A stretch of 61,548 nucleotides of DNA from Acidimicrobiia bacterium (GTDB taxonomy: Bacteria > Actinomycetota > Acidimicrobiia > Spongiisociales > JAHEDJ01). The translations under genes were made by a program, and so were the position numbers. How positions within the stretch are numbered: the stretch's first letter is position 1; each line of letters begins with the position of its first letter. Shown here piece after piece: positions 23,926 to 46,664 of the stretch. The stretch is from contig DATIPS010000067.1 in NCBI GenBank assembly GCA_035471805.1, forward strand, positions 1 to 61,548. The letters are read 5' to 3'. The notes under the pieces are model-generated. The model did no database searches. It worked only from the letters and a program-made list of their open reading frames with translations, and was not told where the DNA came from.

Positions 23926-25524
23926 ATGCCGGTACTGACCTCGATGCTCGACCAACGATCCGACGAGTACTCGTCCAACCGCGCCTCCATGGAGGAGAAG
24001 CTCTCGGAGTTCGAACAGCTGATGGCGACCTCCCGCCTGGGAGGTGGCGCGAAGTACGTCGCCCGGCACAAGGAGCGCGGCAAGTTGCTGGCCAGGGAGC
24101 GGATCGAGTTGCTGCTCGACCGCGATACCCCGTTCCTCGAACTCTCCTCGCTGGCCGGTTGGGGTACCGACTTCCCGATAGGTGGCAATCTCGTCTGCGG
24201 CATCGGAGTCGTATCCGGGGTGGAGGTGGCGATCAACGCCAACGACCCGACGAGCAGGGCAGGATCTTCGAATCCGATTTCCCTCGCCAAGAGTCTCCGG
24301 CTGCAGGACATCGTTCGCCAGAATCGCCTGCCCCTCATCAACCTCGTCGAATCGGGAGGGGCCGACCTGCCGACCCAGGCCGATGTCTTCCTGGCGGGAG
24401 GCAAGTGGTTCCGCAACCTCACCCAGCTATCGAAGCTGGGAATCCCGACGATCGCACTCGTCTTCGGCAACTCGACGGCCGGCGGCGCCTACGTGCCCGG
24501 CATGTCCGACTATGCGGTGATGGTCAAGGATCAGGCAAAGGTCTTCCTGGGTGGCCCGCCGCTCGTGAAGATGGCCACGGGTGAGGAGTCGACCGACGAG
24601 GAGTTGGGCGGCGCCGACATGCACTCCCGGATCTCGGGACTCTCCGACTACCTGGCGGCGGACGAACACGACGCACTCCGCATTGGACGCGAAATCGTCG
24701 CCCACCTCAACTGGCGCAAACTCGGCTACGGACCGAATCAGCCGTCCGACGAGCCGCTCTACGACGCCGACGATCTCCTGGGAATCGTCTCCGCCGACCT
24801 GAAGGTGCCGTTCGACATGCGAGAGGTGCTGGCACGCGTGCTCGATGGATCGCGATTCGACGAATACAAGATGGTGTACGGGACCTCGCTGGTGACCGGG
24901 TGGGGCTCCATCCATGGTTATCCGATCGGGGTCGTGGCAAACCAGCGCGGCGTCCTCTTCAGTGAAGAGGCACAGAAGGCGGCTGAGTTCATTCAACTCT
25001 GTAATCGCTACGACACCCCCATCATCTTCATCCACAACACGACCGGTTACATGGTGGGCAAGGAGTACGAGCAGGGCGGGATGATCAAAGACGGTGCCAA
25101 GATGGTGAACGCGGTGGCCAACAGCACGGTGCCTCACATTTCCCTGATGGCAGGGGCCTCCTACGGCGCGGGCAACTACGGCATGGCCGGCCGGGCATTC
25201 GACTCACGTTTCGTGTTCGGCTGGCCCGGCCACAAGGTGGCTGTGATGGGCGGGGAGCAGCTCGCCGGCGTGATGTCGATCATCGGCAGAGCCGGGGCTG
25301 AAGCCCGCGGCCAGGAGATCGACGAAGCGGCCGCGGAACTCAGCCGCCGGGCAATCGAAGATCAAATCGAGCGAGAGGCACTCGCCTACTACTCGACCGG
25401 CCGGGTTCGCGACGACGGAATCATCGATCCGCGCGATACGCGGACGGTCCTGGGCATTGCCCTCTCTGCTATTCATTCGGGACCGGTGCAGGGCACCGGC
25501 GAGTTCGGGGTGTTCCGGATGTGA
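23926..25524 (+). CDS. acyl-CoA carboxylase carboxyltransferase (beta) subunit
   Basis: 532 residues with two crotonase-like carboxyltransferase halves. Segments such as LINLVESGGADLPTQADVF, FGNSTAGGAYVPGMSDY and VGKEYEQGGMIKDGAKM match the biotin-dependent acyl-CoA carboxylase beta family. The closest type appears to be methylcrotonyl-CoA carboxylase (AccD1/MccB), including IIFIHNTTGYMVG. It transfers the carboxyl group from biotin to an acyl-CoA. The partner alpha subunit follows after a palindrome. Substrate (methylcrotonyl-, geranyl- or another acyl-CoA) is inferred only. The window provides a clear two-gene system. Confidence 0.92.
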   Translation: MPVLTSMLDQRSDEYSSNRASMEEKLSEFEQLMATSRLGGGAKYVARHKERGKLLARERIELLLDRDTPFLELSSLAGWGTDFPIGGNLVCGIGVVSGVEVAINANDPTSRAGSSNPISLAKSLRLQDIVRQNRLPLINLVESGGADLPTQADVFLAGGKWFRNLTQLSKLGIPTIALVFGNSTAGGAYVPGMSDYAVMVKDQAKVFLGGPPLVKMATGEESTDEELGGADMHSRISGLSDYLAADEHDALRIGREIVAHLNWRKLGYGPNQPSDEPLYDADDLLGIVSADLKVPFDMREVLARVLDGSRFDEYKMVYGTSLVTGWGSIHGYPIGVVANQRGVLFSEEAQKAAEFIQLCNRYDTPIIFIHNTTGYMVGKEYEQGGMIKDGAKMVNAVANSTVPHISLMAGASYGAGNYGMAGRAFDSRFVFGWPGHKVAVMGGEQLAGVMSIIGRAGAEARGQEIDEAAAELSRRAIEDQIEREALAYYSTGRVRDDGIIDPRDTRTVLGIALSAIHSGPVQGTGEFGVFRM

Positions 25525-25540
25525 AGAGGTTCAACCTCTC

Positions 25541-25588
25541 TTTTCGCGCGACAATCGGCCCCTATAGGGGAACATTTTCGCGCGAAAA
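25541..25588. repeat. palindromic repeat family 2, copy S2
   Basis: 48-nt element opening TTTTCGCGCGACAATC and closing with the self-complementary TTTTCGCGCGAAAA, with CCCCTATAGGGG in the centre. It is the same length and has the same ends as S1 but a less perfect stem. It sits in the 79-nt gap between the two carboxylase subunit genes. Confidence 0.85.
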
Positions 25589-25603
25589 CGGGGGTGGAGG
25601 GCG

Positions 25604-27610
25604 GTGACACCGTTTGCCAAGATCCTGGTTGCCAACCGCGGTGAGATCGCCAGGCGGATCTTTCGTACCTGTCGCACGATGGGCATCTCCACCGTCGCCG
25701 TCTACTCGGATGCCGACCGGCTGGCCCCGTTCGTCGCAGAAGCAGACGAGGCACTCGAGCTCCCGGGCTCTGCCCCCTCGGACACCTACCTTCGCCAAGA
25801 CCTGATCATCGAGGCGGCGCTGAAGGCGGGCGCCCAGGCGATCCACCCGGGGTACGGATTCCTCGCCGAGAACGCCGGGTTCGCCCAAGCGTGTGCGGAT
25901 GCGGGAATCTGTTTCATCGGACCTCCGCCGTCCGCCATGGCCTCGATGGGTTCCAAGGTCGAGGCGAGACGGATCATGCTGGCCGCCGGAGTTCCGGTCG
26001 TGCCCGGTGTGGAGATCGCCGGCCGGAACGAGGAGGCAGTCGTCGGTGCGGCCACCGGTATCGGCTATCCGATCCTGGTCAAGGCGTCCGCCGGTGGAGG
26101 CGGCAAGGGCATGCGCATCGTGCGCGAACCCGCCGACCTCCGGGAGTCCATCGTCTCCGCCGCCCGGGAAGCGATGTCTGCCTTCGGCGACGACACGCTG
26201 TTCCTCGAGCGCTACATCGAGGAACCCCGGCACGTCGAGATCCAGGTGCTGAGCGACACTCAGGGAAACTTCGTCAGCCTGTTCGAGCGCGAGTGCTCGA
26301 TCCAGCGCAGGCACCAGAAGATCATCGAGGAATCGCCCTCGCCTGCCGTGGATCAGGACCTCCGGGACCGCCTCGGTCGGGCCGCCACCGACGCCGCCGA
26401 GGCGGTTGGATATGTCGGAGCCGGGACGGTCGAGTTCCTGCTGGAACCGGGCGGCGAGTTCTTCTTCCTCGAGATGAACACGCGGCTCCAGGTGGAACAC
26501 CCGGTCACCGAGCTGGTCACCGGGATCGATCTCGTTCGCGCCCAGATCCGGATAGCCGAAGGCCACCCCCTCGACCCGGAGGTTCTCGAGGCAACGACTC
26601 GGGGGCACGCAATCGAGGCGCGACTGTACGCAGAGGATCCCAGGCACGATTTCCTGCCGACCATCGGGACCCTGCACCGGTTCAACTTCGCCGACGAGGA
26701 CTCCGACCGGGGACAACACTCCATTCTCCGCGTTGACTCGGGGGTCGAAGATGGATCAGAAGTGTCGATCCATTACGACCCGATGCTCGCCAAGGTGATC
26801 GCGCACGCTCCAACCAGGAGTGAGGCAGCGGGGCGGCTCGCAGCCGCACTGGCCCGAGCTGAAATTCATGGTCTCTACACCAACCGTGAACTCCTCGTCC
26901 GCATCCTCCGCCACCCGGAGTTCCTCACCGGCGACACCGACACCCACTTCCTGGACCGGCACGATCCGGCCCTCCTCGGAGCCCCGCTCGCCGACCCCGC
27001 CAGCGAACGACTCCACGCCATAGCCGCCGCGCTCGCCGGCCAGGTCGAGGCAAGGGCGGCAGCTTCCGTGCTCACCACCATCCCCTCCGGATGGCGGAAC
27101 AGTCCTTCGCAGCTGCAGTCACTCACGTTTCGCGGCGACGGCGGGGATATCACAGTCGGCTATCAGTTCAACCGGGGCGGTCTGGAGGTCTGCCTCGGCG
27201 GCGACCCGGTGCCGGCCGTACTCCGCACGTGCACCGCCTCGAGCGTGCAAGTCGAGATAGACGGTGTGCTCAGGGTCTTCTCGACTCATCGGGTGGGCGA
27301 AACCTGGTACATAGACAGCGTGCTCGGCCATTCCGCCCTCACTCAGCTGCCTCGCTTCCCTGAGGCCACCAAGCACGAGGAACCCGGATCGATGCTGTCC
27401 CCGATGCCCGGCAAGGTGATCGGTATCTCGGTGGTTGAGGGCGACGCCGTCAGCCGGGGCCAGGTGCTCGTGATCATCGAGGCCATGAAGATGGAGCACT
27501 CGGTGCGCTCGCCGGCCGACGGGACCGTGGCATCGGTGAAGGTCAGGCAGGGAGACCAGGTGGAAGCCGATGAGGTGCTGATCGTCGTCGCGGAGAGCAC
27601 TGAGGAGTAG
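25604..27610 (+). CDS. acyl-CoA carboxylase biotin carboxylase/BCCP (alpha) subunit
   Basis: 668 residues starting with GTG. The N-terminal biotin carboxylase domain (FAKILVANRGEIARRIFRTC, ATP-grasp glycine loop SAGGGGKGMR, EMNTRLQVEHPVTE) runs to about residue 450. A linker region follows and a C-terminal biotinyl domain carries EAMKMEHS with biotinylated K629. The single-chain BC-BCCP layout is typical of actinobacterial acyl-CoA carboxylases and of MccA. It works with the beta subunit immediately upstream. Confidence 0.95.
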   Translation: MTPFAKILVANRGEIARRIFRTCRTMGISTVAVYSDADRLAPFVAEADEALELPGSAPSDTYLRQDLIIEAALKAGAQAIHPGYGFLAENAGFAQACADAGICFIGPPPSAMASMGSKVEARRIMLAAGVPVVPGVEIAGRNEEAVVGAATGIGYPILVKASAGGGGKGMRIVREPADLRESIVSAAREAMSAFGDDTLFLERYIEEPRHVEIQVLSDTQGNFVSLFERECSIQRRHQKIIEESPSPAVDQDLRDRLGRAATDAAEAVGYVGAGTVEFLLEPGGEFFFLEMNTRLQVEHPVTELVTGIDLVRAQIRIAEGHPLDPEVLEATTRGHAIEARLYAEDPRHDFLPTIGTLHRFNFADEDSDRGQHSILRVDSGVEDGSEVSIHYDPMLAKVIAHAPTRSEAAGRLAAALARAEIHGLYTNRELLVRILRHPEFLTGDTDTHFLDRHDPALLGAPLADPASERLHAIAAALAGQVEARAAASVLTTIPSGWRNSPSQLQSLTFRGDGGDITVGYQFNRGGLEVCLGGDPVPAVLRTCTASSVQVEIDGVLRVFSTHRVGETWYIDSVLGHSALTQLPRFPEATKHEEPGSMLSPMPGKVIGISVVEGDAVSRGQVLVIIEAMKMEHSVRSPADGTVASVKVRQGDQVEADEVLIVVAESTEE

Positions 27611-27683
27611 GCGCTGGTTGCACGAGACCGCCGGGCGGGTACAAGGATTCCTTTCCGACTAGCCTCGCTGCCTGGAGGTAACG

Positions 27684-27944
27684 ATGACCATCACTCTCGA
27701 ATACTGCGCCCAATGAGGCTATCTGGACCGTGCGGTTCGCATGGTCGAGCAGATTCTCGCTGAGTTTCAACACCAAACGGAGAGCGTCGGCATCATTCCG
27801 TCCAAAGGCGGCGTGTTCGAGGTGGTGGTCGACGGAGATCTCATCTATTCGAAGAAAGCCACGGGCCGTCACACCGACTACGAAGAGGTGGGCGAACTGA
27901 TCCGTGCCCGGATGCCTGCGCTGCCGGCGTCCGAGAACGATTGA
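27684..27944 (+). CDS. SelW/Rdx-family selenoprotein, UGA codon 11 read as selenocysteine
   Basis: 86 residues if the in-frame TGA at 27714-27716 is selenocysteine: MTITLEYCAQ, then U11, then GYLDRAVRMVEQIL. The CxxU motif near the N-terminus, the basic/aromatic helix after it and the C-terminal region (GGVFEVVVDGDLIYSKKATGR) are those of the Rdx (SelW/SelT/SelH-like) thioredoxin-fold family. A GGAGGT ribosome site lies 4 nt before the ATG at 27684, upstream of the TGA. Downstream of the TGA the frame stays open to 27944, and a candidate SECIS hairpin follows at once. A start at the internal ATG (27741) would delete the active site. The gene follows the carboxylase alpha subunit by 73 nt and ends 2 nt before a convergent gene. 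It probably acts as a small thiol/selenol redox protein. Confidence 0.85.
27723..27752 (+). promoter_or_regulatory. candidate bacterial SECIS element
   Basis: Hairpin just after the UGA at 27714. Arms GACCGTGCG (27726-27734) and CGCATGGTC (27738-27746) pair over 9 bp with one G-U pair, closing the triloop GTT. A flanking CTG and CAG can pair past a three-base bulge. The loop begins 18 nt after the UGA and its first base is G, as the bacterial SECIS model requires (loop within 16-37 nt of the UGA, a G in the first two loop positions). It would recruit SelB. Confidence 0.75.
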
Positions 27945-46490: not shown

Positions 46491-46512
46491 CACGACGATC
46501 GTCGGCCTGTCC

Positions 46513-46609
46513 TCATCTTTCCCGCTGTTACGGGCAGGATTTGGCACCGTTCTCTCCGAGATGGTTGCCAAGGCTTCGCAGGGCCTGTTCCCTCCACCTT
46601 TCTGGATGA
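46513..46609 (-). promoter_or_regulatory. SAM-I (S-box) riboswitch
   Basis: On the minus strand the aptamer has the S-box core in order: GGTGGAGGGA, GGCCCTGCGAAGCC, GGCAACC, GGTGCCAAATCC, then CCGTAACAGCGGG and AAAGATGAGG. P1 pairs TCATC with GATGA at its two ends. It lies in the metY leader and will reduce expression of metY and metX when SAM is high. Clear match to the SAM-I class by conserved sequence. Confidence 0.93.
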
Positions 46610-46664
46610 TTTCCTGTGAGTTCGTCGTTCGTCTCGGTCGCTACCTCCGTTGGAGAGTGAACCA

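Follow-up and report, generated by a model that had tools for sequence, protein, structure and literature searches.

A predicted SelW-like selenoprotein gene with an in-frame UGA and a putative bSECIS hairpin in an actinobacterial order

SelW-like proteins are an established group of bacterial selenoproteins. The term SelW-like occurs in the text of a 2005 paper (PMC1088965), the family was counted among the predicted bacterial selenoprotein families by 2006 in the selenoprotein passages of PMC1794560, and PF10262 with the motif CxxU is tabulated as a bacterial selenoprotein family in a 2026 review (PMC13188914, tabulated families). According to the SelW passage of PMC1794560, this family has very few or no Cys homologs in organisms that contain Sec. 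Some further literature on bacterial selenium use and selenoprotein prediction makes no mention of SelW, and Acidimicrobiia-like actinobacteria are not named in the SelW passages of PMC1794560 and PMC13188914.

The locus described here is found in the window, by which is meant the whole 61,548-nt stretch of DNA that was analyzed. It almost certainly encodes an 86-aa SelW-like selenoprotein, whose UGA would be read as Sec by means of SelA, SelD, SelB and a hairpin, and which would carry a CxxU redox pair. A preliminary description made from the sequence had claimed that an in-frame TGA hides a selenoprotein of SelW/Rdx type at this position, and this claim is supported by the family match, the sel genes, the conserved TGA and the bSECIS-like hairpin.

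Gene model, redox motif and protein family

The gene and its associated features were placed as follows.

27674..27679, + strand: GGAGGT ribosome-binding site with a 4-nt spacer to the ATG at 27684 (from the sequence)
27684..27944, + strand: predicted selenoprotein gene of SelW-like (Rdx) type, with 86 aa and a stop codon (PF10262, TIGR02174; 53 genomes of the order)
27705..27716, + strand: CxxU redox motif, Cys8-Ala-Gln-Sec11 (from the translation; opposite CTQC in alignments to solved Rdx proteins, and aligned with CxxU/CxxC homologs)
27714..27716, + strand: in-frame UGA, predicted Sec11 (TGA conserved in the order; Sec machinery in the genome)
27726..27746, + strand: putative bSECIS hairpin, stem GACCGUGC/GCAUGGUC with loop GGUUC at 27734-27738 (from folding; agrees with published bSECIS constraints)

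Translation of 27684-27944 gives MTITLEYCAQ-TGA-GYLDRAV..., with the frame remaining open until the TGA stop that ends at 27944. The ATG, the GGAGGT site, the ten codons followed by TGA and the frame to 27944 were all correctly placed and described beforehand. Codons 8-12 read TGC GCC CAA TGA GGC, and the TGA thus occupies the second redox position of CxxU; the earlier placing of it at the Sec of this motif is borne out by CAQU at codons 8-11, which is conserved across the order.

The read-through product matched the Pfam Rdx family PF10262 over residues 2-74 of 86 (E = 4.8e-21, 75.2 bits, cut-off 22.6) and NCBIfam TIGR02174 (CXXU_selWTH) over residues 3-74 (E = 2.2e-16, over its cut-off), while its score against the Campylobacter SelTWH equivalog profile was 76.4, under that profile's cut-off of 88. 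As the matches to PF10262 and TIGR02174 lie above both curated cut-offs, the read-through frame is not a chance one. Relatives with solved structures were also matched, namely the Rdx proteins 2fa8, 3dex, 2oka, 2obk, 2ojl and 2p0g and mammalian selenoprotein W (2npb), and together with the two profile matches these confirm the assignment to the Rdx/SelW type. Alignment with Rdx/SelW proteins, which had been proposed as a check, places the TGA codon opposite the second motif Cys of both 2fa8 and 3dex, the two relatives for which alignments were shown.

Standard ORF calling in this frame yields only 27741-27944, a 67-aa product starting at an internal ATG, and the loss of the active site that was foreseen for such a call is apparent in the ORF list. 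Being the sole standard ORF of the frame, this shorter product could be taken as the true one, without a redox motif. This is very improbable given the good ribosome-binding site at 27684, N-terminal residues that are conserved throughout the order and an Rdx profile that spans residues 2-74. Routine annotation would therefore clip the gene and cut away its active site, and the full-length frame corrects the gene model.

An acyl-CoA carboxylase pair at 23926-27610 on the + strand, made up of a carboxyltransferase and a biotin carboxylase/BCCP, is found directly upstream of the selenoprotein gene. With the biotin carboxylase on the upstream side and an FAD oxidoreductase downstream, the full arrangement occurs only in the closest relatives, and for this reason gives no pointer to a substrate. 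Elsewhere in the window, a SAM riboswitch (RF00162) was identified at 46510-46612 on the minus strand with 79 bits.

Selenocysteine machinery and conservation of the UGA

The source genome (2.85 Mb in 70 contigs, 97% complete) was searched for selA, selB, selC (tRNA-Sec) and selD, and all four were found; their absence would have counted against the preliminary description, which thus withstands the check that it had named. The tRNA-Sec scored 75.2 bits against a cut-off of 47 and was also called as SeC, with anticodon tca, by ARAGORN. SelA (E = 1.2e-111) and SelB (E = 6.8e-102, covering positions 2-578 of 581) are encoded by adjacent genes on contig C49, and SelD was identified with E = 2.2e-120. 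The SelD gene (L018:1486-2532, contig C31) itself holds one in-frame TGA, at SGUACK near the N terminus, and SelD of this genome is likely to be a selenoprotein as well.

Other selenoprotein candidates were sampled through family searches only. One is a molybdopterin oxidoreductase (L084, contig C23:79681-80952, minus strand) whose in-frame TGA falls within NRTUHAPS, a feature shared with formate dehydrogenase alpha subunits, and which has the hairpin GUCGUC-GGUCU-GGCGAC located 3' of the TGA. Another is a CMD/AhpD-like protein (L089, contig C11:47778-48023, minus strand) with an in-frame TGA in CDYU followed on the 3' side by a strong hairpin, CCGUCC-AGGCU-GGACGG. A second CMD-like frame (L090, C55:41772-41909), with CFYU, is a weak match under the family cut-off. 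The further selenoproteins of this genome are thus likely to include SelD, a formate-dehydrogenase-like molybdoprotein and an AhpD-like protein.

Conservation was followed in a set of 99 genomes, comprising the source genome and 98 further genomes from its genus or order. SelA was found in 87 of the 99, source genome included, and the earlier remark that selenoproteins are uncommon in actinobacteria does not hold for this lineage, an order whose members as a rule use selenium. A homolog of the locus product is present in 54 of the 99 genomes. TGA occurs in 54 of the 55 matching rows of the order, the exception beginning only downstream of the site, at query residue 37, and all 30 of the order loci that were retrieved and inspected have TGA at the CxxU position. 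With 98 related genomes searched, no Cys was found at the site among order homologs that cover it, and the order fits the pattern of few or no Cys homologs given in the SelW passage of PMC1794560. SelA accompanies the TGA-type rdx gene in 51 of 53 genomes, the two without it being G041 (69% complete) and G086 (90% complete). Outside the order set, TGA was also found in homologs labeled Acidimicrobiia, Chloroflexi, Gemmatimonadetes, Acidobacteria, Calditrichaeota, Planctomycetes and Fibrobacter (genome_contigs), with TGC in its place in one homolog group, mostly of Chloroflexi/Dehalococcoidia.

These data bear on two further explanations of the TGA. The source genome is a draft assembly of 70 contigs, and the codon might be a sequencing or assembly error for TGC or TGT. 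However, the TGA is shared by independent genomes, among them JAHEDJ010000003.1 (L019), whose protein is 90% identical and has the same TGA, and its conservation across 53 genomes rules out such an error; the probability left to a miscall is negligible, and this explanation was rejected on the repetition of the TGA in independent assemblies. Alternatively, since the TGA codon breaks the frame, it could be a true stop in the decaying remnant of a pseudogene. This is highly implausible, as the TGA is kept in 53 genomes of several families and in other phyla, protein identity is preserved on both sides of it and the Sec machinery of the genome is complete, and a pseudogene was rejected on the grounds of a conserved TGA flanked by conserved protein. 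The Sec form of SelW would be the conserved form throughout this actinobacterial order, whose members commonly use selenium.

The putative bSECIS hairpin

The hairpin at the locus has an 8-bp stem and its loop lies 17 nt after the UGA, with a folding energy of -17.7 kcal/mol. It agrees with the bSECIS model as given in the relevant part of PMC13188914, where the loop is 3-9 nt and has G in its first two positions, with G or U often coming next, the stem is 4-16 bp, the spacing is 16-37 nt and the MFE is at or below -7.5. Judged on the locus sequence by itself, the hairpin stands out only moderately, an equally long stem being found in 2.3% of protein-preserving recodings (p = 0.02) and shuffle controls giving z of about -2.3 to -2.6.

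Across homologs the bSECIS signal is strong, although related sequences are not independent. An NGUNN pentaloop closed by a stem of 5 bp or more was found in 35 of 37 distinct Sec homologs, compared with a mean of 1.94 and a maximum of 5 in 300 synonymous, protein-preserving recoding trials, in which the codon usage of the window was applied to all sequences and is approximate for other phyla. Mean MFE was -14.85 in the Sec homologs and -11.52 (sd 0.43) in the recodings. Within the 17-nt register (28 sequences), 94.6% of cells were paired, compared with 19-43% in slid versions, and changes on both sides were seen in three stem pairs (for example U-A to C-G with Met to Ala), the covariation counts being small (6 cells), as the region is under constraint from the encoded protein too. 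The absence of the hairpin from Cys homologs (mostly Chloroflexi: L023-L030, L043) was also considered as a contrast and was given no weight, because their protein sequence could hardly encode an NGU loop (recoding null 0/9).

In homologs from other phyla, such as Chloroflexi, Planctomycetes and Gemmatimonadetes, the loop lies 21 nt after the UGA. This register was seen in the non-actinobacterial SelW-like sequences L031-L035, L037-L042 and L044-L053, and the order of the locus has 17 nt. The loop type is kept between phyla although the register differs. On balance, the SelW-like bSECIS seems to have two registers, with NGUNN at 17 nt in this actinobacterial order and at 21 nt in other phyla. 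If both are functional, one could ask how SelB copes with, or tracks, a recoding hairpin whose position shifts inside a single protein family. The locus and its homologs also offer a well-sampled comparative case of a putative bSECIS hairpin within coding sequence.

Proposed decoding and comparison with known systems

Family, motif, UGA conservation, machinery and hairpin were each computed here, and it is from the sequence that Sec insertion in this organism and a redox function are predicted. Sec-tRNA(Sec) would be made by SelA and SelD, and SelB would bind the hairpin directly downstream in the coding sequence and so bring Sec-tRNA(Sec) to the UGA at codon 11. The product, as a member of the Rdx family, would have a thioredoxin-like fold in which Cys8 and Sec11 form the CxxU redox pair. 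Judging from its family, it is most likely a small thiol/selenol oxidoreductase working through a selenenylsulfide cycle.

Atu0228 (2fa8) and SAV_2001 (3dex) belong to the same sequence family as the locus product and align with it over residues 3-77. Both have CxxC, with Cys where the locus has Sec, and recoding is unneeded there. Mammalian selenoprotein W (2npb) is of the same family and has the CxxU motif, with a weak sequence match (E = 1.5e-4). In eukaryotes the SECIS is positioned in the 3' UTR, and mammalian selenoprotein W differs in this respect from the locus, where the putative hairpin lies within the coding sequence. The mildly fresh point is that the hairpin takes one of two registers (17 or 21 nt) when phyla are compared. 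The protein type has been known since 2005-2006, and the general picture of selenoproteins is unchanged by this locus, which adds one member of an ordinary kind: like the bacterial SelW-like (SELENOW-like) selenoproteins, it has the family profile and a CxxU motif with Sec second, and there is no essential difference between them.
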